DNA from: Paracrocinitomix mangrovi
Lineage (GTDB): Bacteria > Bacteroidota > Bacteroidia > Flavobacteriales_D > Crocinitomicaceae
Assembly (NCBI RefSeq): GCF_019740355.2
Contig: NZ_CP091819.1
Coordinates: 3,658,001-3,722,000, forward strand
Direction: 5' to 3'
DNA length: 64,000 nt
Within the stretch, counting starts at the first letter, position 1. The number at the start of each line of letters is the position of its first letter. A program made the translations under genes and the position numbers. The notes below the pieces were generated by a model that was not told the origin of the DNA, made no database searches, and worked only from the letters and a program-made list of their open reading frames with translations. Positions 22,713 through 59,229 of this stretch are shown piece after piece.

Positions 22713-25700
22713 ATGAAAGGATTTTTATTATCCATATTGCTTCTCTTTACCGGTCTTGTATACTCACAGGATCCGGTTATTTCTTTGACTATTACCACCA
22801 GAGATGATGACAGTGGTAAAAAATTAGCAGGAGCAACAGTTATTGTAAAATCCGGTGGAAGTGTTTTTACAACTAAGACTTCAGCTTCTAACGGTAAAGT
22901 TCCTCCTATTGATTTGCCTTTGGGTCAAAATTATGTGGTAGAAATCAAGAAAGATGGTTATGTAACTAAAGTGGCAAATATTGATGGTCACTTTGATTAT
23001 CCTGAAGATTTACCTCCATTTGTTCCTTTTCCAATTGAAACATCATTGTTTCAGAAGGTTGAAGGTGTCGATTTTGCATGGTTAGAGACTACTCCAATGA
23101 TTAAGTTTGAGCTAGATCAATACGGTAATCAAAGTTGGGATCAGGCTTATACAAAGCAAATGCTTGATAAAATTGAGAAGCTTAAAAAGCAGTTAGCTGA
23201 GAAAAAAGAAGAAGAAGAAAAGAAAAGAATAGAGTTCGAACAGTATGTAGCGTCTGGAGACAAAGCAGTTGAAAAACAAGAGTATCAAGAAGCTATAGAT
23301 AATTATGATAAAGCACTTGCTTTATTTGATGATGCGGACGTAAAAAAGAAAAAAACTGACGCCCAAAAAGCTTGGGATGCATTAAAAGCTTCAGAAGAAA
23401 CTGAGAAGCAATTTGCGCTTAAAATGGAGGCTGCAAAGGTGGCATATTCCGGTGAACAGTATGATGAAGCAATTAAATTGTACAAAGAAGCAAGCGGAAT
23501 TAAACCCAATGAGCAATTACCTAAGGATAGGATTGCTGAGATTGAGAAAATTCTAGCCGATCAAAAAGCGAAAGAAGCGGAATTTAATAAGCTAGTAAAG
23601 GATGGTGATGCAGCAGTTGGTTCTGAAGATTACGACATAGCAATTGGCAATTATGAAGCTGCATTGGTGATCAAGAAAGACAATGCTGTTCAGGTTAAAT
23701 TGGATGATGCCAGAAAGAAAAAATCTGACAAAGAAGAAGCGGAGCAAGCAGCAAAAGAGAACGAGCAAAAATACAATGACTTAATTGCAAATGCAGATAA
23801 AGCATTTGATGGAAAAAGCTATCAGGATGCCAGAGATAAATATGAAGAGGCATTAAAGTTGAAGCCAAATGAATCGCACCCTTCTGCTAGAATATCTCAG
23901 ATAGATGATATCCTTAAAAAACAAAAAGAAGCTGAAGAGGCAGCAGAAAAACTAGAAGCTGATTACAGGAAAGCAATTGAGCAAGGAGACAACGCTTTTC
24001 AGTCCAAAGATTGGGATCAAGCAATTAAGTATTATGAAGAGGCTTTAGGGATTAAACCGGATGAAAAATATCCAAAAGATCAATTGGCTAAGTCCAAAGA
24101 AGGTCAGGCAAATGAAGCAGAACAGGCAGCACTTGATGAGAAGTACAACAAGTTGATGTCTGAAGGAAAAAGCTTGAGAGAATCTGAAAAGTTTCAAGAT
24201 GCTTTAGCTAAATACAAAGAGGCTCAAAGCATGAAGCCTGATGAGTCTGAACCAAAAGACAGAATTGCAGAATTAGAAAAACTTATTGCAGAGCAAGCAG
24301 ATGCTGCTGAGAAAGAAGAGCAATATAAGAAGTTGATGCAAGAAGGAGCTGATTTGTTGGCTGCAGATAAGCTAGAAAATGCGCTTGAAAAGTATGAAAG
24401 TGCATTGAATGTTAAGCCTAAAGATGAGCCTGCTCAAGCTAAAATTAATGAAATCAATACCTTAATTCAGGACAGAAAAAATGCAGCAGAATCTGATGCT
24501 AAGTTCAAAGAGTATGTTGATAATGGAGATAAAGCTTTTGGAAACGAGAAGTACACTGACGCTAAGGCGAATTATGAAAAAGCACTAGAGATTAAAGATG
24601 ATCAAGCTGTAAAAGATAAAATCAAACAGATTGAAGAGTTAGTTGCTAAAGATGCTGCGGCTAAGGAATTAGAGGAAAAATATCAAGCTGCAATTAAGGA
24701 AGCAGATCAGGCATTTGATGCTTCAAACTGGGATAGTGCAATTGAAAAATATGAGGCAGCTCTTGCTATTAAACAGGATAGTTATCCAGAGAAAAGAATT
24801 GCTGAAGCAAAGAAAAACAGAGATGATATGGCGGCTGAGGCTGAAAAAGATACTCAGTTTAAAAATCTGGTTGCGGCAGGAGATGAATTAGCAGGAAATC
24901 AAAAGTATCAAGAGGCAATTAATAAGTACGAAGAAGCGCTGAAAATAAAATCGGACGGTGATGTTTCTCAGAAAATAAAAGAATTAAAAGTCATGATGGA
25001 AGAGGTTGCAGATCAGGCAGCCAAAGAACAAGCTTATAAGGATAAAATTGCTGAGGCTGATGAAGCTTTTAACGGTGAAAACTGGAATACAGCAAAAGCC
25101 TTGTATAAGGAAGCGATTGCTATAAAATCAGAACAATATCCAAAAGATCAAATACTGGCCATTGAGAAAAAGATTCAGGATGCGGCTCAAAATGAAAAAG
25201 AAGCAGAATATCAGGCGGCAATAAAAGTGGCAGATGATTTAAGGGATGCTAAAAAATATAAAGAGGCCATTGCTGCCTATGAATCGGCTAAGAGTATTAA
25301 GCCTACGGATAGTTACCCTGATGAGCAAATCAATAAAATTCAAGGGATAATTTCTACTCAAGAGCAAGAAGCTCAACAGAAGGAGGCTATTGATAGAAAG
25401 TACAAAGATCTAATGGCAGAGGGAGAAAAAGAGTTAGGAAGCAAATCGTATGAAGTAGCCTTGGATAAGTTTCAGCAAGCTTCTGATTTGAAGCCTGAAG
25501 AGGAATTGCCTAAAGAAAAGATCAAAGAAATTAATGAGATTCTTGGAGAACTAAATGAACAAGCTGCCATTGACAAGAAGTATGATGAAGCACTTAAAAA
25601 AGCTGATCAATTATTCAATGATGAGGAGTATAAGGATGCCAAAGCCGCTTATGAGAATGCCTTAACAATTAAGCCAAGTGAAGGTTATCCAAAAGCTCAG

Positions 25701-28700
25701 ATTGCCAAATGTGAAGAAGGCATGAAAAATGAAACTGCTAATGAAATTGAAGAGCAGTATGATAAAATATTAAAAGCAGCTCAGAAAAAGACTGATGAAA
25801 AAGAGTATGACGCAGCCATTGATTATTACGAAAGAGCATTAAAAATAAAACCGGATGATGCTTTTCCTAAGACAAAAATTGCTGAGATTAAAAAGTTGAT
25901 TGAAGAGGAAAAAGCAGCCAAAGAGTTGATGGAAAAGTATCAAGCTGCAGTAAAGAAAGCAGATGACCTTTTTGCTTCTGAGGATTTTGTAGCAGCAAAA
26001 TCTGCTTATCAAGACGCATTGGATATTAAATCAGATGAAGTTTATCCAAAAAATCAAATTCAGGCATGTGAGCAAAAAATGCTTGAAAATACTGTTGATG
26101 AAGAAGAAGCGCAGTATCAAAAAATTCTGGCTGCAGCAGCAAAAAAGTTTGATGAAAAAGACTATGAAGGAGCCCTGGATTATTATAAACGCGCAAAAAC
26201 TGTAAGAGCTGCTGATCCATTTCCGCAACAAAAGATTGATGAAATTACTCAGCTATTAAAGGATCTTAAAGATCAGGAAGCGCAAGAGGCTATACAAGCA
26301 AGATATGATGCTGCCATTAAAAGAGCAGATGATCTTTTCAATTCAGAAGAATTTAAAGATGCAAAAACAGCTTATCAAGATGCCTTAGATATTAAGTCAA
26401 ACGAGCAGTATCCTAAAGATAGAATTGTATTGTGTGAAGAGAAGATGAAAGAAAATACTGTTGATGAACTAGAAGAACAGTATCAAAAGATTCTTAAAGC
26501 TGCACAAAAGAAGTTTGACGCTAAAGAATATGAATCCGCTCTAGATTATTATGAAAGAGCTAAAGGAATTAGGCCATCAGATCCGCTTCCTCAAAATAAG
26601 ATTGATGAAATCAACCAAATTTTAAAGGACCTTGCTTCTGAAAAAGATAAAAGAGACAGGTTTAATCAGTTAGTTCAAACAGCAGATAACCAGTTTGAGA
26701 AAGGTAAATGGCAAGACGCAATGCAGAACTACATGAGTGCATTGGATATATTTAAGGAACAGTATCCAGAGGACCAGGTAGCTAAATGTAGAGAGGAATT
26801 AAAGAAAAAACCAGGGGCTGATGATGCTTACAATAAGTTGATTTCAAAAGCAGATGAGTATTTTGATGCTACTAATTATGACAAGGCTAAAGGGCTGTAT
26901 AAAAGAGCAATCAAATTAAAGCCGTCAGATCAATATCCAAAAGACAAATTAGCTGAGATTGATAGAATATTAAATCCGCCGGCTGATTTAGTTGAGAAAA
27001 GCAATGATTTAAAGGATCCTGGGACCAGAGTGAATGAGAATTCAATTGACATTGAAGCAATGTTGATGGAGGCTAAAGAACAGTCTAGAGAATATGAAAT
27101 TCAACAAATTTATAAGCAAGGAGAAGATGCGGATTCTGCTTTGATGGTTTGGACAGATGAAAATAAAGAGGAGACTTTTAAAGCGAAAGAGGAGATCAAT
27201 ACAATTGAAGAAGATATTTCAGAGGATCAGGTAGAAGCAGATGAAAAAAGACAAGAAGTTGTTTTAGAAGTAGAAGAATGGGTTGAGGATATCAATAAAG
27301 AAGAGGAGAAAAATGTAGCTACTCAAGAAGATGATATTTTTTATCAGGAGAAAAAGGTGGTTGCAATGGTAGAAGAAATTGAAGAGAATGATCTAGAAGC
27401 GGAGTATGATCGTCAAAAAGTTGAAGTGGAAGTAGAAAATCAAACCGTTTCCTACTATGAAAGGGAAGAAAGTGATAGTAAGGCTCAGTATGAAACCAAT
27501 ATGGAAGCTAAAAACTACACAAATGAAATGGTTGAAACTATTGAGGAGCAAGAGTATGAAGATGACCAGGCAAGAGTTGAATATCTTGGAGATGTAGAGC
27601 AGATCAAAGATGAGAATATTGAAAGAGAGAGAGTAGATGCTAATAGTCAGGAGAACTCAAATTTTGAAACAAAAGATTATACTACTGAAGTTGTTGAAGA
27701 GATTGAAGCTAATGATTTGGAAGCAGAATACGATCGTCAAAAAGTGGAGATTGAGGTAGAGAATCAGACAGTTTCTTATTATGAAAGAGAAGAAGAAGAT
27801 AGAAGAAATCAAAACAATTCAAACCTTGATATTAAAGATTACACTGAAGATGTAATTACAGAGATCAATGAAAATAATCTGGAGGCAGAATATGATCGTC
27901 AAAAAGTTGAGGTTGCTGTAGAGAATCAAACTGTTGCTTATAATGAAAGAGAAGAAAGTGATAGTAAAGCCCAGTATGAAACAAATATGCAGGCAAAAGA
28001 CTATACAAATGAAATGGTGGAAATTATTGAAGAGCAAGAGTATGATGATGATCAAGCTAGAGTAGAGTATTTGGGAGATGTTGAAAAAATCAAAGATGAA
28101 AATATAGAAAGAGAGGAAGAAGATGTTACTCAGCAAACAAACAACAACTTCAGAACTGTAGACTATAGAGAAGAAATAGTTGAGGAAATTGAAGAAAATG
28201 ATTTGGAGGCAGAATATGATAGACAGGCCGTAGAAGTAGAAGTAGAGAATCAAACAGTAGCATATTATGAGCGTGAAAATCTAAATGCAAAAAGCCAGGA
28301 GGATAATAATATGGCTGTGAAAAATTATACTGAAGATGTAGTAGATGAAATTGAAGAAAATGATTTAGAGGCAGAATATGACAGACAAGCTGTGGAAAAG
28401 GAAGTAGAGAATCAGGTTGTTGAATGGGAGAAAAGAGAAGGAGAAAATAGAGATGATCAGTATGATAACAATATGGACGCCAAAGATTATACTGAAGATG
28501 TTGTTGATAAGCTTGAAGAAGATAAGGGAGTGATGCAAGAAAAGTCTGATGTAAACAATGATAAAACAGAAGACCAACTGGAAGAATACATTGAAATAGT
28601 GAATGAAACTGCTGAACAAACGGATGAGGCTTTAATTGACAGTGAATCTGAAATTGACCAACAAAAAGAATTAATCAATGTTGAACAGCAAGGAATTGAA

Positions 28701-28946
28701 TCAAAGAATGAATTAGGTGAAAAATATCCTGAAGGAGTAACAGAAGAATCATTTACACTGAATGATGCAAGGGGATTAATGAAATCATATGTGATTAGAA
28801 GAATTGTGGTTATTGATGGTAGAGGAATGGTGTATGAAAAAACACAAACCAGACACGGGACCATTACTTATACCAGAGATGGTGAGCCGATTTCTGAGTT
28901 CATGTGGAATGACGAAACTAACGATCCTAAATTGACACGAAACTAA
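22713..28946 (+). CDS. giant secreted TPR/acidic-repeat protein
   Basis: This 2077-residue protein has a signal peptide (1-18, ending LVYS). An N-terminal CarboxypepD_reg/PEGA-like beta domain covers about 20-85. A TPR-like array (about 176-1423) holds about 21 units of the type GD.AF...YQ.AI..YE.AL.IKP.E.YPK.RI.EI. A strongly acidic coiled-coil-like region (about 1452-1937) consists of exact 54-residue repeats. The C-terminal domain (about 2002-2077) contains YPEGVTEESF and RRIVVIDGRGMVYEK. It is probably envelope-associated. Its C-terminal domain recalls proteins of Flavobacteriales repeat families, by memory only. The apbE gene follows after 7 nt. The candidate ECF promoter lies at 22599-22625. 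Confidence 0.85.
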   Translation: MKGFLLSILLLFTGLVYSQDPVISLTITTRDDDSGKKLAGATVIVKSGGSVFTTKTSASNGKVPPIDLPLGQNYVVEIKKDGYVTKVANIDGHFDYPEDLPPFVPFPIETSLFQKVEGVDFAWLETTPMIKFELDQYGNQSWDQAYTKQMLDKIEKLKKQLAEKKEEEEKKRIEFEQYVASGDKAVEKQEYQEAIDNYDKALALFDDADVKKKKTDAQKAWDALKASEETEKQFALKMEAAKVAYSGEQYDEAIKLYKEASGIKPNEQLPKDRIAEIEKILADQKAKEAEFNKLVKDGDAAVGSEDYDIAIGNYEAALVIKKDNAVQVKLDDARKKKSDKEEAEQAAKENEQKYNDLIANADKAFDGKSYQDARDKYEEALKLKPNESHPSARISQIDDILKKQKEAEEAAEKLEADYRKAIEQGDNAFQSKDWDQAIKYYEEALGIKPDEKYPKDQLAKSKEGQANEAEQAALDEKYNKLMSEGKSLRESEKFQDALAKYKEAQSMKPDESEPKDRIAELEKLIAEQADAAEKEEQYKKLMQEGADLLAADKLENALEKYESALNVKPKDEPAQAKINEINTLIQDRKNAAESDAKFKEYVDNGDKAFGNEKYTDAKANYEKALEIKDDQAVKDKIKQIEELVAKDAAAKELEEKYQAAIKEADQAFDASNWDSAIEKYEAALAIKQDSYPEKRIAEAKKNRDDMAAEAEKDTQFKNLVAAGDELAGNQKYQEAINKYEEALKIKSDGDVSQKIKELKVMMEEVADQAAKEQAYKDKIAEADEAFNGENWNTAKALYKEAIAIKSEQYPKDQILAIEKKIQDAAQNEKEAEYQAAIKVADDLRDAKKYKEAIAAYESAKSIKPTDSYPDEQINKIQGIISTQEQEAQQKEAIDRKYKDLMAEGEKELGSKSYEVALDKFQQASDLKPEEELPKEKIKEINEILGELNEQAAIDKKYDEALKKADQLFNDEEYKDAKAAYENALTIKPSEGYPKAQIAKCEEGMKNETANEIEEQYDKILKAAQKKTDEKEYDAAIDYYERALKIKPDDAFPKTKIAEIKKLIEEEKAAKELMEKYQAAVKKADDLFASEDFVAAKSAYQDALDIKSDEVYPKNQIQACEQKMLENTVDEEEAQYQKILAAAAKKFDEKDYEGALDYYKRAKTVRAADPFPQQKIDEITQLLKDLKDQEAQEAIQARYDAAIKRADDLFNSEEFKDAKTAYQDALDIKSNEQYPKDRIVLCEEKMKENTVDELEEQYQKILKAAQKKFDAKEYESALDYYERAKGIRPSDPLPQNKIDEINQILKDLASEKDKRDRFNQLVQTADNQFEKGKWQDAMQNYMSALDIFKEQYPEDQVAKCREELKKKPGADDAYNKLISKADEYFDATNYDKAKGLYKRAIKLKPSDQYPKDKLAEIDRILNPPADLVEKSNDLKDPGTRVNENSIDIEAMLMEAKEQSREYEIQQIYKQGEDADSALMVWTDENKEETFKAKEEINTIEEDISEDQVEADEKRQEVVLEVEEWVEDINKEEEKNVATQEDDIFYQEKKVVAMVEEIEENDLEAEYDRQKVEVEVENQTVSYYEREESDSKAQYETNMEAKNYTNEMVETIEEQEYEDDQARVEYLGDVEQIKDENIERERVDANSQENSNFETKDYTTEVVEEIEANDLEAEYDRQKVEIEVENQTVSYYEREEEDRRNQNNSNLDIKDYTEDVITEINENNLEAEYDRQKVEVAVENQTVAYNEREESDSKAQYETNMQAKDYTNEMVEIIEEQEYDDDQARVEYLGDVEKIKDENIEREEEDVTQQTNNNFRTVDYREEIVEEIEENDLEAEYDRQAVEVEVENQTVAYYERENLNAKSQEDNNMAVKNYTEDVVDEIEENDLEAEYDRQAVEKEVENQVVEWEKREGENRDDQYDNNMDAKDYTEDVVDKLEEDKGVMQEKSDVNNDKTEDQLEEYIEIVNETAEQTDEALIDSESEIDQQKELINVEQQGIESKNELGEKYPEGVTEESFTLNDARGLMKSYVIRRIVVIDGRGMVYEKTQTRHGTITYTRDGEPISEFMWNDETNDPKLTRN
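23240..26980 (+). repeat. TPR-like tandem repeat array within the giant gene
   Basis: About 21 degenerate units were counted by eye, each with a helix-turn-helix signature such as ADDLFNSEEFKDAKTAYQDA followed by DIKSNEQYPKDRI and a charged linker helix. From 25602 the units form dimers (starts about 25602, 25959 and 26325; 357 and 366 nt apart) in which an ADDLF-type unit alternates with an AQKKFD-type unit. Protein and DNA similarity are both high between the last two dimers, which suggests recent duplication. Confidence 0.8.
27066..28523 (+). repeat. nine 162-bp (54-residue) acidic repeat units in the giant gene
   Basis: Unit starts are exactly 162 nt apart: 27066, 27228, 27390, 27552, 27714, 27876, 28038, 28200 and 28362. 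The first two are degenerate. The consensus opening is DLEAEYDRQKVEVEVENQTV and the closing motif is V.EIEEN. Units at 27552 and 28038 are a divergent type (EQEYEDDQARVEYLGDVE), so the pattern from 27390 is A-B-A-A-B-A-A. This implies duplication of a 486-bp three-unit block. Confidence 0.9.
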
Positions 28947-33065: not shown

Positions 33066-35045
33066 TTAATAAATGACAATTCGTTCAGTATGTGACGTTG
33101 TTTCACTAAAAATTTTGATCAAATAGGTGCCACTTTTCCATTTGAGGGTAGAAATTTCATTTGTTCCTTCATTGAGTTCTTTTGACAGGATCAATTTGCT
33201 GCTCATATCGTAGCATAAAAAATGGCATTTATCAGGAGTAGAAACATAGAACTTATCTCTGGAAGGATTAGGGAATACTTTAGTGTCTAATTCGCCTAAC
33301 ATATCAATTCCTGCATTGTTAATTGCATTTCCACTAACATGAAAAACAAAAGGATTAATATTGTCATTGGAAATAATGGAATAGGAGTTTGTATAAGTTC
33401 CCTCAGTTGGTGGGGTCAATATCAACAGCATTTTTTTGCTGCTGTCAGGTGCTATAATATATGAAGGGTTGTTAATCAGATTAAATGCTTGATTGGAGCC
33501 TTCGATAATATGGGTAATATTTATAAAGGAAGAACCTGAATTGTACATATTTACATACTTACCAATGGATGTGTTGATGGGATGATTTTGGTAATATATA
33601 GTATCATTATTATAAATGGTATCATTTTCAACTACAATAAACAAATGATTTTGATCATCTAGCCCCAAAAGTTCTTTTCTTGAAATGGCAATTGCCGTTG
33701 ACTTATTCCAGTATTTTGTTGAATCAAATTCATCTAGCTGCGTAATTGCCGAAGTTGGATGCTGTATTGATAAAAAAGCATAATTATAGTCGGGGGTAAA
33801 AGTCATACCGGTAGGTTCTGATCCTGCAGGTGTTTTGAGAAAAACATTAATTTTATTTAAAGAATCGTGTATATGGTCATGGGTTGCGAACCAAATATGA
33901 TTCTGTCCACCATCTTGTAGCATGTATAAATTACCTTTGTCATCAAAGGTCAAATTGTCCATACCCAAATCAATTATTACAGTTTGTGTATCAGTTTCAC
34001 TAATAATTGTGTAAGGATAATCGTTAGCGACAAAAATTTTAAAATTATTTACAGAATCTGTCATATCTGTAAATCTGTAGACAGCCCCTGGAGCTGTTGT
34101 ATATTTTGAGGAAAAGAATACGTCTCCACTTATCGGGTCAACATCAACATCTTCTATGTAGTAAAAATTCGTTGCACCTGCAGAAATTGTGTTGGCAATA
34201 CAATTATTTCTATCGGCGATTGAAGAGTTTGGAATTTGGATCCAGGATCCCGTAAGTGGAACAGGGGTTGTTCCTAAAAGTTGGGTGAGATTACCTATTC
34301 TTAATACATATAAATTGCCATCTTTAACATTTTGAGGAGAGGCCATTACATATTTATACAAATATCCATTTGATTGATCGCTTCCAAAATATGCCACGGA
34401 GTCATTAGCAAATACTATATTTTCATGTGCCATTCTTCCCATTGCCCACACTTTATCTTGTAATCCATCACTTTCGTAATCCGCTACAGAAGCAGTTTGA
34501 GGATCAACTTCTACTATCCATCCATAATCCAAGTAACCATCCCCATTATTGTCAGTGGTTGAATTAGAAACTTCTTCACCAAAAAAAACCGTTCCCCAAG
34601 GACTAAGCGTACCAGAACAAGGTCTTGATGTTCCTGAAATTCCTGAATTGGTAAAATCAACTAATTGACCATATAAAATATCCCATTGATTATCTATAGA
34701 ATCTAATTCTATTTCTAGAACACTCATTTTACCAGTTGTCGTTTCGTGGTTTACTGTTAAATAGCCGTGTGTTGAAGAACCATTAATAGGTACAAAACAG
34801 GTGAAATCAAAATAACTACCCATCACTTGTGTACCATTTAATAGAGGGTCATTGTCTTGTGCGATAAATTGAAAAGCATGTGTTGTCGGAATAACCATCT
34901 CATTTCCTTGATTTTCTGAAAACAATCCCGGAAAACACGAAAAGTGTAAACTATCTGCCGGATCACATCCCAAATTTAGTTGTGAGTACAATTGATTAAC
35001 ACTTAGCATCATTACATATGCAAGTATGAACTTTACCTTTCCCAT
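33066..35045 (-). CDS. DUF839/PhoX-like secreted protein with type IX sorting domain
   Basis: This 659-residue protein has a signal peptide (about 1-21). The DUF839 beta-propeller region (about 30-450) contains GYLTVNHETTTGK, PWGTVFFGEEV, MGRMAHENI and FSSKYTTAPGAVYRFTD. A spacer/Ig-like region then leads to a C-terminal T9SS type-A sorting domain (about 580-659; VFPNPSRDKFYV ... SGTYLIKI). DUF839 proteins include PhoX-type phosphatases, but the full PhoX active site was not checked. It is likely secreted by the Por/T9SS system and fixed on the surface. The neighbouring alkaline phosphatase suggests a phosphate theme. Confidence 0.85.
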   Translation of the reverse strand: MGKVKFILAYVMMLSVNQLYSQLNLGCDPADSLHFSCFPGLFSENQGNEMVIPTTHAFQFIAQDNDPLLNGTQVMGSYFDFTCFVPINGSSTHGYLTVNHETTTGKMSVLEIELDSIDNQWDILYGQLVDFTNSGISGTSRPCSGTLSPWGTVFFGEEVSNSTTDNNGDGYLDYGWIVEVDPQTASVADYESDGLQDKVWAMGRMAHENIVFANDSVAYFGSDQSNGYLYKYVMASPQNVKDGNLYVLRIGNLTQLLGTTPVPLTGSWIQIPNSSIADRNNCIANTISAGATNFYYIEDVDVDPISGDVFFSSKYTTAPGAVYRFTDMTDSVNNFKIFVANDYPYTIISETDTQTVIIDLGMDNLTFDDKGNLYMLQDGGQNHIWFATHDHIHDSLNKINVFLKTPAGSEPTGMTFTPDYNYAFLSIQHPTSAITQLDEFDSTKYWNKSTAIAISRKELLGLDDQNHLFIVVENDTIYNNDTIYYQNHPINTSIGKYVNMYNSGSSFINITHIIEGSNQAFNLINNPSYIIAPDSSKKMLLILTPPTEGTYTNSYSIISNDNINPFVFHVSGNAINNAGIDMLGELDTKVFPNPSRDKFYVSTPDKCHFLCYDMSSKLILSKELNEGTNEISTLKWKSGTYLIKIFSETTSHTERIVIY

Positions 35046-54792: not shown

Positions 54793-55965
54793 TTATTTTC
54801 GTATAACTATGATTTCAGTTCGGCGATTGAGTGCCATATTTGACTCATTTTTATTCTCTACAGCCGGAGATAAAGAACCAAAATAGCTGTGCTTAAATCG
54901 GTTAGAGGAAATTCCTTTTGAAACTAAATAGTTGATAACAATTTGGGCCCGTTCATTTGACAAAATCAAATTTCTGGCATTGCTCATGCTATTATCAGTA
55001 TGACCTTTTATCTCAAATTTAAGAGAAGGGAAGTCTTTTAAAAATTGTCCAAATTTATCCAGCTTGTTTTTTGATTCAGCTGATAATTCTGAACTGTTAT
55101 GATTAAAATATATAGTAGGGATTACGTAATGATCAAGATTGTAATCACCTCCGTTTTTCAATACTTGAGGATCATTGCATTGATTACCTATTTTCTCCAT
55201 GTACCAATAACCGTCCAGCTGATCACAATTAATGATTTTAGATTTGTAGATGCCATTTAAAACCAAACCACTTCCGCTTATTATTTCATTTTCATAAAAG
55301 TACACCTGCCCGTTTTTTATTTCGCCTTCTAATGTTGATCTGCTGTCCTCTGCATACTGCATGTCTGTCCAAATGAACATTCCCTTGAATTTTAATCCAT
55401 TTACTTCTTGTATCCAAACTACCATTGGGTAAGTGGCATTAACATTACAGGCGTGTTGTTTAAACTTACCTGTCCATGCGCCAAGTAAAAAGTCTGCAGT
55501 AGTAATTTTGTCACAATTGTCTTTTTCAGAAATCGCCTTGGATACATTGATTTTTCCTCCACCACAATTGCCTCCAGCTGTCCAAGTGCCTATTAACTTA
55601 TAAGCTTTGTCCTCCTTGTTTAGCGTTAATTGACATTTTTTAATGCACCAATAAAAATTGTTTGAGGGAAAGTAACCATCCTTGCTTTTGTCTTCTTTTA
55701 AAATTTCTTTCTCTTGAAAATTGAGTTGGCCATCTTTATAAGTTCCCAGGAAAGTGATGGTTCCAAAGTTGCCAGACTGTGTTTCTTTGATGAATGTTGT
55801 GCCTTTAGCTATCCCATTAGATTCAATCGTGTCGAGTCTGATTTCAAAGTAGAATTTTTGCTTACCGTTTTGCGTAAGTTCACCAGTATAAGTTCCTGTC
55901 TCAACATCTTGCTGTGCTAAAACAGTTTTACCTAGTAAAATAAATAGCAAAAAATAGTAACGCAT
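54793..55965 (-). CDS. OmpA-domain envelope protein
   Basis: This is 390 residues from ATG 55965; a TTG at 55977 would add four residues before the signal peptide. It has a signal peptide (ends VLAQ) and two lipocalin-like beta repeats (about 20-150 and 155-270, each starting near a GTYTGEL or GAWTGKF motif). A C-terminal OmpA domain (about 275-390) has FNHNSSELSAESKNKLDKFG, IKGHTDNSMSNA and LNRRTEI, which bind peptidoglycan. It should link an outer-membrane or surface component to the cell wall. Confidence 0.8.
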   Translation of the reverse strand: MRYYFLLFILLGKTVLAQQDVETGTYTGELTQNGKQKFYFEIRLDTIESNGIAKGTTFIKETQSGNFGTITFLGTYKDGQLNFQEKEILKEDKSKDGYFPSNNFYWCIKKCQLTLNKEDKAYKLIGTWTAGGNCGGGKINVSKAISEKDNCDKITTADFLLGAWTGKFKQHACNVNATYPMVVWIQEVNGLKFKGMFIWTDMQYAEDSRSTLEGEIKNGQVYFYENEIISGSGLVLNGIYKSKIINCDQLDGYWYMEKIGNQCNDPQVLKNGGDYNLDHYVIPTIYFNHNSSELSAESKNKLDKFGQFLKDFPSLKFEIKGHTDNSMSNARNLILSNERAQIVINYLVSKGISSNRFKHSYFGSLSPAVENKNESNMALNRRTEIIVIRK

Positions 55966-55995
55966 TTTAGGGTTCAATTAAGCAAAGAAAGATAC

Positions 55996-56047: not shown

Positions 56048-58114
56048 TTAGTTCGCTGTAATCTCAAATTCAGTACGTCTGTTTAATTGACGTCCCTCTG
56101 CAGAATCATTGGTTGCAACAGGTTTGTCTGAACCATATCCTTTAGCAGTTAATCTACTTTTGTTGATTCCTTTTCCAACAAGGTAAGCCATTACCGCATC
56201 TGCTCTGTCTTGAGATAAGGTAATATTTCCCTGTGCTGAACCTGTATTATCAGTGTGTCCTGATAATTCAATTTTAAGAGATGGAACATCTTTAAGTAGT
56301 TTAACCAATCTGTCCAACTCAGCATTGGATTCAGGTCTTAAGTTTGATTTTCCCGTATCAAAGAACACATTTCTAAGTGCGATTTTTGATCCCACTTTAA
56401 TGTTCTTCAACTCAATTGTTTTGTTTACAAGGTTGTACGCAGATCCTTCTGGAATGTCAAAGTTTTCTGAATGGAAAAGGTATCCGTCAGCCTTAACCGC
56501 AATTCCGTAGTTGGCACCTGAATTCAATGATAAAAGGAATTTTCCACTGGCAGAGTTAGTTGTAAAATTTTCAACTGATTCACCAGTTTGGTTGTTGATG
56601 ATTTCAATAACAGCTTCAACCGGTTTTTTGGTTAATGCATCTACCGTTTTACCTTTAAATACTGTAAGGTTTGCAGATGTAGTTACTTTTACTTCAGATG
56701 CTAATTCAGGATCTTGAATAGGCTTGGCTACTGAAGCCAATAAATAATCCTGTGTAGCAAGAGCAGGTTCTTTTTCAGGACCCCAGAAAGTAACTTTGTA
56801 GATATCAAATCCGCCTTCACCACCTTCTCTGTTTGAAGCGATATAGGCAAATTTTCCATTTGCAGTTGCAGCAAAAAAGAAATCATCATAAGGAGTATTA
56901 ATTGGATATCCCATGTTTACTGGTTTTGACCAGTATCCACTTTTCTCTTTTGTAGACATAAAAATGTCGTATCCTCCCATACTATTATGCCCTTCAGAGG
57001 CAAAGTACATTGTTTTACCATCAGGGTGAAGATAAACTGGTCCGTCATTGAAAGTTGTACTAGTTGCCATTTCTCTATTTGGTAATCCCCACTCTCTGGT
57101 TCTAACATTTACAACTCCTGAAACCATGATTTCGTAACCATTGTTTTCAGATGATTTTGAATAATAAATCAATTTGTCATTGAAGTTATATGCTGCATAA
57201 ATATCATCTGATTTCAAGTTGATATTTCTTGAAAAAGATACAGGCTCTGTCCACTCATCTCCTTTTTGAAAAGATTCGTAAATATCAAAGTGACCTGCTG
57301 GTGTAATTTGATTCAACAATAACTTAGTTCCATTGTACGAGAAGTTATTTGAGATATCATCTTTCTCTGTATTGATTTTATTTCCTTTGATAGGTTTTGG
57401 AGTACTCCATTTTCCATTTTCAAAAGTAGAAGTGTAGATATCATCATCATATTTACCCACTTCATTAGGGCTGTGACTATTAGGTCTGTCAGATGTAAGT
57501 ACCATTTCACTTCCATCCATTGTAATAGAAGGTGCATAATCGTTGTATTCAGTACTTACTTCAGGAACCTGATCAACCCAAGCTCTAACAGGGCTTGCGT
57601 GCAGTGTTTTTCCTGATTGACATTCTTTATAACGCTGTTTTACGAATTTGCCGAATCTGTCTGCTTTTTTATATTCATTTTCAAATTTTTGATAAAATTT
57701 TAAAGCTTCGTCAAATTTGTACTCTAACTGTCTCGCAAATCCCATATAGTAGTTCATGAAGTGATGAACTTCAGGGTTCAATTCGTAAGCAGTTTCAAAG
57801 TATTTTGTGCATTTAACTTTGTAACTAGAGTGTGCGTAACAAACCCCCATCATAAAGTTTAACTCAGCACTTTTAGGATTGAATTTGAATGCTTTTTCAA
57901 ATTGCTCCAATGCCTTCCAGTAATGTAACTCAGGATCTTTGGTAGCGAAAACCTCTTGATTTCCTAATTCCCAACTTTCTTTCCCTTTTTCATATGCTTC
58001 AAAGGCCGTTTTAAAACCGTCTTTGTCTTCAAAATTCTTTGCTTTCCATTCTACATCTTGTCCAAAAACTGTAAAACCAAAAGCTATTAATGATATTGCA
58101 ATTAAATTTTTCAT
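56048..58114 (-). CDS. PorE-like TPR-PD40-CRD-OmpA protein
   Basis: In this 688-residue protein a signal peptide (1-18) is followed by TPR units (about 55-150) and a PD40/beta-propeller (about 175-450). Examples in the propeller are YAPSITMDGSEMVLTSDRPN and GGEGGFDIYKV. A carboxypeptidase-regulatory domain (about 485-570; FKGKTVDALTKKPVEAVIE) and a C-terminal OmpA domain (about 578-688; NVFFDTGKSNLRPES, LSGHTDNTGSA, LNRRTEF) complete it. This order is that of PorE, a type IX secretion-associated protein that contacts peptidoglycan. Unlike the P. gingivalis protein as I recall it, no lipobox Cys is seen. It lies 17 nt downstream of a TPR gene. Confidence 0.82.
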   Translation of the reverse strand: MKNLIAISLIAFGFTVFGQDVEWKAKNFEDKDGFKTAFEAYEKGKESWELGNQEVFATKDPELHYWKALEQFEKAFKFNPKSAELNFMMGVCYAHSSYKVKCTKYFETAYELNPEVHHFMNYYMGFARQLEYKFDEALKFYQKFENEYKKADRFGKFVKQRYKECQSGKTLHASPVRAWVDQVPEVSTEYNDYAPSITMDGSEMVLTSDRPNSHSPNEVGKYDDDIYTSTFENGKWSTPKPIKGNKINTEKDDISNNFSYNGTKLLLNQITPAGHFDIYESFQKGDEWTEPVSFSRNINLKSDDIYAAYNFNDKLIYYSKSSENNGYEIMVSGVVNVRTREWGLPNREMATSTTFNDGPVYLHPDGKTMYFASEGHNSMGGYDIFMSTKEKSGYWSKPVNMGYPINTPYDDFFFAATANGKFAYIASNREGGEGGFDIYKVTFWGPEKEPALATQDYLLASVAKPIQDPELASEVKVTTSANLTVFKGKTVDALTKKPVEAVIEIINNQTGESVENFTTNSASGKFLLSLNSGANYGIAVKADGYLFHSENFDIPEGSAYNLVNKTIELKNIKVGSKIALRNVFFDTGKSNLRPESNAELDRLVKLLKDVPSLKIELSGHTDNTGSAQGNITLSQDRADAVMAYLVGKGINKSRLTAKGYGSDKPVATNDSAEGRQLNRRTEFEITAN

Positions 58115-58131
58115 GTTTCTTTCAGTTTATA

Positions 58132-59229
58132 TTAGTTTGAACAATTAGTTGAATGATAATTTTTAGCTAGTTCAGAACCTAATTCTCTAGCCTTGTGCCA
58201 ATCTTCGCATGCCCCTTCCATGTCACGTAACATTTCTTTTGCATTTGCTCTATTTACATAAGCATCTGCTAAATTTTTGTCTAATGAGATTGCTTTGTCT
58301 GCATCTTTTTTAGCTTTTTCATACTCTCCATTTTTGAAGTAAGCTCCAGAACGGTTGCTGTATGCAGGTGCATATGAACTGTTGATCTCAATTGCTTTTG
58401 TAAAATCATTAACTGCATCTGAATATCTCTCCATTTGCATTTCAGTAACCCCACGGTTGTTGTATGCTAAATAGAATTTAGCATCTACCGACAATGCTCT
58501 ATTGAAAGCTTTAAGTGCTTCATCATAAAGCTTCATTCTTGTTTTGGTAGTACCTATATTATTTAAAACAAAAGCAAGGTTTGCATTTTTTCTAGCAGCT
58601 TCTTCGTAGTCTTTTACTGCTTGAGCATATTTTTCTAACATTCTGTAGCATGAACCACGATCATTGTATGCATATGCATCTTCCGGACGCAATTCAATCA
58701 CTTTTGTAAACTGCTCAATAGCCGATTCGTAATCTTTTTGCATGAATTTCAATGTCCCAAAGTTGTAATAAGCAAGCGGGTTTTTAGGATCTAATTCAAT
58801 AGATTTTAAATAATCTTTCTCCGCGCTTAAATACTCTTTCATTCCTTGATAAGCCCAGCCTCTTTGGAAGTACCCTTTTGCGTATCCAGGCTTTTTTTGC
58901 AATAAAACATCCATTGTTTTTACCGCTTCTTTAAACTTTAAAGCTTTGTTTTCTGCAATGGCCTTATTGTAATAAGCTGGTGTAAAATTTGGATCTGCTG
59001 AAATAGATTCAGAGAATTTGTTGATTGCTCCTTCGTACTTTTTTTGGTTGAACAATTCAATCCCGGCATTATATGCTTTTTGGGATTTTTCGATTGCTGC
59101 ATTAGTTTCGTTTAAGTTAGCGATCGAGTCTCTATAAGCTTTCTCTTCCGGTGTCAACTCATCCTCAATTTGAGCAAAAGTTGATAAACACAGGAAAGAA
59201 GCTGCAAGGGTAAACAGTATTCTTTTCAC
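58132..59229 (-). CDS. TPR-repeat periplasmic protein
   Basis: This 365-residue protein has a signal peptide (1-19, ending TFAQ) and about eight TPR units covering 50-350. Examples are NAGIELFNQKKYEGAINKFS, YYNKAIAENKALKFKEAV, YYNFGTLKFMQKDYESAIEQ and YNNRGVTEMQMERYSDAVND. It is the first gene of the two-gene unit with the PorE-like gene (17-nt gap), so it is a good candidate partner or scaffold for that OmpA-family protein. Other TPR genes in the window are structurally different. Confidence 0.8.
   Translation of the reverse strand: MKRILFTLAASFLCLSTFAQIEDELTPEEKAYRDSIANLNETNAAIEKSQKAYNAGIELFNQKKYEGAINKFSESISADPNFTPAYYNKAIAENKALKFKEAVKTMDVLLQKKPGYAKGYFQRGWAYQGMKEYLSAEKDYLKSIELDPKNPLAYYNFGTLKFMQKDYESAIEQFTKVIELRPEDAYAYNDRGSCYRMLEKYAQAVKDYEEAARKNANLAFVLNNIGTTKTRMKLYDEALKAFNRALSVDAKFYLAYNNRGVTEMQMERYSDAVNDFTKAIEINSSYAPAYSNRSGAYFKNGEYEKAKKDADKAISLDKNLADAYVNRANAKEMLRDMEGACEDWHKARELGSELAKNYHSTNCSN

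Follow-up and report, generated by a model that had tools for sequence, protein, structure and literature searches.

PorE-like proteins occur in multiple copies in Bacteroidota, and how they are split among secretion parts, adhesin anchors and envelope stabilisers is at issue. A 64,000-nt stretch of the genome of Paracrocinitomix mangrovi, a member of the Crocinitomicaceae (assembly GCF_019740355.2, contig NZ_CP091819.1, positions 3,658,001 to 3,722,000; hereafter the window), encodes one such protein, here called the scaffold, directly behind a gene for a tetratricopeptide repeat (TPR) protein. The genome comprises 4.37 Mb on one contig and is 99.97% complete. In an earlier note on this DNA, the scaffold was likened to PorE, a component linked to type IX secretion, and the TPR protein was suggested as a possible partner. 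Is the scaffold indeed PorE, and do the two genes belong together? We find that the four-domain architecture stands, as does the partner guess as far as gene linkage goes, but that the name PorE does not. Judging by its sequence, the scaffold is a member of a separate, predicted non-lipidated branch of the PorE-like family. We put the probability at about one half that the two genes are a conserved module for a periplasmic complex that lacks a lipid anchor and is tied to the cell wall.

Architecture of the scaffold and its TPR partner

Both open reading frames were confirmed at the coordinates given previously, as was the 17-nt gap between them. The features of the locus, in 5' to 3' order on the coding strand, are as follows.

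58132 to 59229, minus strand: TPR partner gene, 365 amino acids, GTG start
58115 to 58131, minus strand: spacer of 17 nt, from the TPR stop codon to the ATG of the scaffold gene
56048 to 58114, minus strand: scaffold gene (TPR, propeller, carboxypeptidase-regulatory-like domain, OmpA), 688 amino acids, ATG start
57596 to 58024, minus strand: N-terminal TPR-like helical domain, residues 31-173, from the model (Pfam TPR_2 below cut-off)
56786 to 57583, minus strand: beta-propeller (PD40) of about five blades (strand count), residues 178-443, Pfam over cut-off and model
56408 to 56668, minus strand: carboxypeptidase-regulatory-like beta domain (CRD), residues 483-569, Pfam 22.9 bits (below the cut-off of 32.3) and model
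56054 to 56386, minus strand: OmpA-like peptidoglycan-binding domain, residues 577-687, Pfam 86.8 bits
56000 to 56026, minus strand: terminator-like hairpin 3' of the scaffold gene, 11 pairs and a T run

Their spacing suggests that the TPR and scaffold genes may be co-transcribed. Where a strong terminator was described earlier, there is one terminator-like site (56026-56000). Shuffled versions of the region yield 3.0 such sites on average, so only the position of the hairpin directly after the scaffold gene is telling.

The scaffold matches Pfam OmpA (86.8 bits, cut-off 27.2) and PD40 (54.7 bits) over the cut-off, and TPR_2 (23.8 bits of 27) and CarboxypepD_reg (22.9 bits of 32.3) under it. 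In an AlphaFold2 model built from 44 rows (mean predicted local distance difference test score, pLDDT, 86.2; predicted template-modelling score 0.77), helices at residues 31-173 are followed by propeller strands at 178-443, a beta domain at 483-569 and an OmpA domain reaching to residue 687; residues 452-480 form a disordered linker of low confidence (pLDDT < 50). Pfam and the model thus bear out the domain order TPR, PD40 propeller, CRD, OmpA, which is that of PorE. A signal peptide ending in ...VFGQ is recognizable by eye.

The OmpA domain carries an LSxxRAxxVxxxL motif at residues 633-645, and H620, D622, N630, L633, S634 and R637 are invariant in scaffold-type alignments of 29 and 44 rows. 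With a domain over the cut-off and a conserved motif, the scaffold belongs to the OmpA-like peptidoglycan-binding proteins (PF00691). A Foldseek comparison with the PDB placed this domain near the solved structures of Capnocytophaga gingivalis OmpA, the PorE C-terminal domain (6TOP) and Pal. The motif and the PorE structure 6TOP (PMC7192894) suggest that the scaffold binds peptidoglycan through this domain.

The TPR partner likewise has a signal peptide, by eye, ending near ...FAQ, and shows no lipobox on the same inspection. Its model (pLDDT 94.0) contains, by our own count of helices, nine TPR helix pairs and a C-terminal cap, instead of the eight repeats reported before. Near its C-terminus, C341 and C363 are nearly invariant in a 40-row alignment, and a disulfide is possible. 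Foldseek searches of the PDB with the scaffold and the partner added nothing on function among the best 50 rows of each; the matches listed were OmpA domains, a few long low-TM (template-modelling score) or propeller matches and general TPR superhelices.

Conservation of the gene pair

Sixty genomes of the window's GTDB family were searched, scaffold matches above 700 bits and TPR protein matches above 350 bits being counted as full-length. Each of the two proteins was found full-length in 43 genomes. Both were present in 42, neither in 16 and only one in two (G036 and G056); the PD40 match of G036 starts at base 436 of its contig and that of G056 is partial. G016, one of the 16 genomes lacking both full genes, holds a TPR fragment. 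In each of the 42 genomes with both full genes, the two share contig and strand, and 10-70 nt separate the ends of their matches.

Linkage was equally tight in four sets of loci, which overlap in genomes and were not summed. The TPR gene is located directly upstream of the scaffold gene in 30/30 loci (the window's own included), in 76/80 loci of named genomes, and in 29/30 of the best matches of each of two further draws. The named genomes, some of which fall within the family, include Hymenobacter, Salinivirgaceae, Bacteroidales and one Candidatus Delongbacteria metagenome-assembled genome (MAG). Three of their four misses are contig ends and the fourth is a fused frame (L139); both misses of the further draws are contig ends as well (over all sets: L137, L142, L174, L226 and L254). 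A TPR family member was found in 76 of 81 neighbourhoods and the next commonest neighbour family in 15, indicating that the pair holds while its surroundings change. At class level, 132/295 genomes give a match at E ≤ 1e-150; of these, only the 30 best loci were checked for adjacency, and the weaker matches could represent other branches. No description of a TPR and PorE-like pair was found in the literature searched, most subscription papers and supplements lying outside it.

Variants of the pair were also observed. P. mangrovi itself carries a second, diverged TPR and PD40-OmpA pair at 3909472-3912717. It is part of a longer stretch (3906147-3912717, L048) in which it is followed by one more TPR-like and one more PD40-OmpA gene, the last with a possible lipobox (LIGC). 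In one Flavobacteriales MAG, the TPR and PD40-OmpA parts share a single open frame of 1059 amino acids with an internal signal peptide (L139:3897-7076). PD40-OmpA matches with one in-frame stop occur in five genomes of one family, f94 (G672, G639, G777, G821 and G800), and these stops comprise all three stop codons.

Relation of the scaffold to PorE

Against the PorE model (NCBIfam NF052230, curated cut-off 600 bits), the scaffold scores 210.5 bits. The P. mangrovi genome contains 43 stretches matching this model. Six other P. mangrovi proteins outscore the scaffold, namely 871672-873558 (437 bits), 3302413-3304536 (436 bits) and four more with 366, 349, 278 and 267 bits; none in the genome reaches 600 bits. 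In score, therefore, the genome holds better PorE candidates, a finding that the earlier note itself had said would undo the name. Since none of 296 genomes in a phylum-wide draw exceeded the PorE cut-off, reference sequences were taken from another order (that of the genome of L197), in which 109/198 genomes exceed it; 15 of these loci were fetched.

In a quick tree of 70 rows, 29 pair-type proteins (the window's included) and the 15 PorE proteins are split by a branch with a support of 100, counting those two groups only. Several P. mangrovi paralogues are long-branched in this tree, and one P. mangrovi protein lacking an OmpA domain was left out. Forcing the window scaffold together with PorE costs 320 log units and is rejected by the approximately unbiased (AU) test (p 3e-150). 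The P. mangrovi protein 3906147-3908318 is placed within the pair side, and 3302413-3304536 with its relative L198 adjoins PorE (support 91, not starred). Forcing 3302413-3304536 alone, without L198, with PorE is also rejected (AU p 2e-7), which makes it the nearest relative of PorE in this genome and not a proven orthologue.

The two groups differ in lipidation signal and in gene neighbourhood as well. As noted earlier, no lipobox is visible by eye in the scaffold. Of 140 pair loci (130 distinct), four lack the 5' end; in the remaining 136, a loose pattern near the mature start revealed a lipobox-like cysteine in three, versus 14 of the 15 PorE proteins, the one PorE left unread (L217) having its frame taken too far upstream. 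The three pair-type proteins retain a normal cleavage site after the cysteine. With a strict pattern the counts are 1/136 and 4/15. The missing lipidation therefore characterizes the branch and is not peculiar to the window protein. Moreover, no partner-like TPR gene was found upstream of PorE in 15/15 loci (1.3-1.5 kb of upstream DNA); the L215 locus has a TPR fragment of weak score (77 bits), located downstream of PorE in the opposite orientation. A pair-type match (E < 1e-175) is present in 51 of the 109 genomes with a PorE over the cut-off (adjacency was checked for 30 loci of this draw), indicating that PorE and the pair type coexist. Score, tree, AU test, lipobox and neighbours all reject the scaffold as a PorE orthologue.

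Two other assignments were considered and rejected. The scaffold reaches 242.1 bits with the CHU_0125 model (NCBIfam NF053607, cut-off 620 bits), for which the best P. mangrovi protein, at 424 bits, is encoded elsewhere in the genome. In a separate region of the genome (3820185-3822854, L044), a PD40-OmpA protein with a lipobox (IASC) lies beside a QueE-like gene, as porE does in Porphyromonas gingivalis. This protein (3820185-3822245) nevertheless falls outside the PorE branch in the tree, so synteny alone misleads here.

Possible link to type IX secretion

SprA was detected in 59/60 family genomes, the exception being G016 (79% complete), and is retained in 15 of the 16 without both full pair genes. 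Five of these 15 (G015, G019, G035, G041 and G050) hold a second-type relative (464-504 bits), which might stand in for the pair scaffold. The other ten, including G021 (59% complete), contain no scaffold match better than about 1e-42. The pair is hence not needed for having a type IX system, and a required role in secretion is unsupported, subject to the five possible stand-ins. For the family genomes G031, G043 and G033, the SprA matches have the same coordinates as those in, respectively, a Crocinitomix MAG, a Fluviicola MAG and Taishania pollutisoli.

Among 50 hand-picked pair-bearing genomes (50 of the 80 loci), 48 contain SprA; the two misses are assemblies of 2.4 and 1.5 Mb. In the 198 genomes of the other order, a pair-type match at E ≤ 1e-100 occurs in 90/186 genomes with SprA and 2/12 without (p 0.04); at E < 1e-175 these numbers are 81/186 and 2/12 (p 0.08). 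As a yardstick, PorE-like matches occur in 183/186 versus 3/12 (p 4e-11). All these association tests ignore descent and assembly gaps.

Genes for PorP-like proteins were searched with a model built from nine P. mangrovi proteins. Because it derives from a single genome, this model could overlook distant PorP proteins; in a control run on 11 loci of other PorE-like proteins, it picked up two PorP-like genes. No PorP-like gene was detected in 80 pair loci (flanks of up to 5 kb) or in any open reading frame of the window, nor, with 1.5-kb flanks, in 60 further pair loci or 15 PorE loci; 30 more pair loci yielded one. This sole case among the scanned pair loci, a PorP/SprF-family gene immediately following the pair in the same orientation (L066:119-1126, minus strand), was confirmed by TIGR03519 (158 bits, cut-off 91). 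On the other hand, of 17 related P. mangrovi proteins, seven are encoded next to a PorP/SprF gene, and each of these seven genes exceeds the TIGR03519 cut-off. A PorP neighbour was accordingly rejected as a feature of the pair, being found in L066 only.

A proposed wall-anchored module and its alternatives

In the module that we favour, both proteins would be exported by Sec, as their signal peptides suggest. The OmpA domain of the scaffold would bind peptidoglycan, as those of PorE and Pal do; the propeller and the N-terminal TPR may form a platform, and the nine-repeat partner may dock on this platform or on a client, a contact to which the near-invariant linkage points. Such a complex would fasten a machine of the outer membrane or the periplasm to the wall, in the way assumed for PorE and PorP, and, without a lipid anchor, would reach the outer membrane via its partners. 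It would most likely work like PorE or Tol-Pal. Several points weigh against it. Gene linkage can arise from co-regulation alone, and the correlated distances (r 0.82, 37 loci) are expected from shared ancestry. The fusion in L139 comes from a single MAG and retains an internal signal peptide, so it could reflect a sequence error, or its product could be cleaved into two proteins. Finally, without a lipid anchor the scaffold is less likely than PorE or Pal to tether the outer membrane directly. Only tentatively do we go further and propose a widespread Bacteroidota module with a soluble wall-anchored scaffold, in which the lipid anchor of PorE has been traded for an obligate TPR partner and which provides a second wall-coupling complex of the PorE or Tol-Pal type beside PorE.

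The same domain order and the 210 bits to the PorE model could be taken to mean that P. mangrovi uses the scaffold as its PorE, in which case the protein would be essential to the core of type IX secretion and the TPR protein an added subunit. This is highly improbable: the 600-bit cut-off is missed and six other P. mangrovi proteins score 267-437 bits, tree and AU test reject the grouping, there is no lipobox, the PorE loci lack the upstream gene, SprA persists in 15/16 family genomes without both full genes, and nearly half (51/109) of the PorE genomes hold a pair-type match besides. Alternatively, the pair could be a type IX accessory, holding at the wall a PorP/SprF-type barrel and its type B cargo whose genes lie elsewhere. 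Such a role has been put forward for PorE-like proteins of Flavobacterium johnsoniae. PorE binds PorP (PMC9143113), 48/50 pair-bearing genomes contain SprA, pair-type matches are enriched in SprA-positive genomes at p 0.04 or 0.08 depending on the threshold, and L066 has its downstream PorP/SprF-family gene. Even so, we regard this role as quite unlikely. PorP-like genes were found in 0/80, 0/60 and 1/30 pair loci versus 7/17 for the related proteins, and 96 of the 186 SprA-positive genomes of the other order lack a pair-type match. SprA is present anyway in 59/60 and 186/198 genomes, so the nesting is weak, and descent is ignored.

The pair could instead be a general stabiliser of outer membrane and wall, similar to Tol-Pal, in which a CpoB-like TPR, a TolB-like propeller and a Pal-like OmpA domain serve taxa without TolB. 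Canonical TolB was rejected as present here: its N-domain (PF04052) was found in 0/20 relatives, P. mangrovi included, and in 3/14 control genomes. The idea of a Tol-Pal-like function has been published for PorE (PMC12204202), and outer-membrane integrity suffers in Cytophaga hutchinsonii when the related CHU_0125 is deleted (PMC5891637). However, 16/60 family genomes do without both full genes, so the pair is not universal; the scaffold has no lipid anchor and stays below the CHU_0125 cut-off (242 of 620 bits), and a P. gingivalis porE mutant retained normal outer-membrane architecture (PMC5053529). We therefore consider a stabiliser unlikely and retain the wall-held periplasmic complex as the favoured reading.

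Neighbouring genes in the window

Just downstream of the terminator-like site, 54793-55977 (minus strand) encodes a 394-residue protein whose only assigned part is a C-terminal OmpA domain (75 bits), the N-terminal part matching no domain; counterparts occupy the same place in L059 (58%) and L060 (50%). It was rejected as a third module member, as it lies beyond the terminator-like site and has a full-length counterpart only in L059 and L060 among 29 relative loci, a search reaching only about 1.5 kb past the pair. The product of 33066-35045, described earlier as sorted by the type IX system, is PhoX-like with a type IX type A sorting domain (37.3 bits, cut-off 27). At 22713-28946 (plus strand), a gene for a 2077-residue protein precedes one of the ApbE family; the protein matches TPR models many times and CarboxypepD_reg once, all weakly.

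Comparison with known systems

The pair branch is separable by sequence, has no lipid anchor and has a fixed partner gene, which makes it a clean two-gene target; it also cautions against calling every four-domain protein PorE. With PorE of P. gingivalis (PG1058), the scaffold shares the order TPR, propeller, CRD, OmpA, a similar length and the wall-binding motif of the OmpA domain. It differs in its separate branch, its 210 of 600 bits, the missing lipobox and the TPR gene in front; P. gingivalis porE is instead co-transcribed with queD and queE genes (PMC5053529). PorE is a lipoprotein, and the structure of its OmpA domain was determined together with a peptidoglycan fragment (6TOP; PMC7192894); it forms a complex with PorP (PMC9143113) and a type B cargo. 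The presence of 2 to 13 PG1058 homologues in some species has been noted before (PMC5053529).

CHU_0125 of C. hutchinsonii also combines TPR, PD40 and OmpA, and the scaffold scores higher with the CHU_0125 model (242 bits) than with that of PorE, yet far below 620 bits. Unlike the scaffold, CHU_0125 carries a lipoprotein annotation, and the outer-membrane role is known for CHU_0125 alone (PMC5891637). In F. johnsoniae, six porP-like genes adjoin porE-like genes (drawn from the papers cited here and PMC12618676). These PorE-like proteins and 7/17 P. mangrovi relatives have the same general architecture as the scaffold, but adjoin a PorP/SprF gene, which the window pair does not. SprE/PorW, like the partner, is a TPR scaffold, and SprE belongs to type IX secretion. 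SprE, however, is a lipoprotein and contains 13 TPR units as well as an insertion of 160 residues (PMC10994853), whereas the window protein has nine repeats in 365 amino acids and no lipobox.

PorE has been proposed to be a CpoB-TolB-Pal fusion, and whether it acts in type IX secretion or as a Tol-Pal-like tether is under debate (PMC12204202). The window pair has three folds in common with Tol-Pal, namely a propeller (TolB), an OmpA-type wall binder (Pal) and a TPR protein (CpoB). It differs from that system in that the scaffold combines propeller and wall binder in one chain without a lipid anchor, in a genome with no TolB N-domain match.

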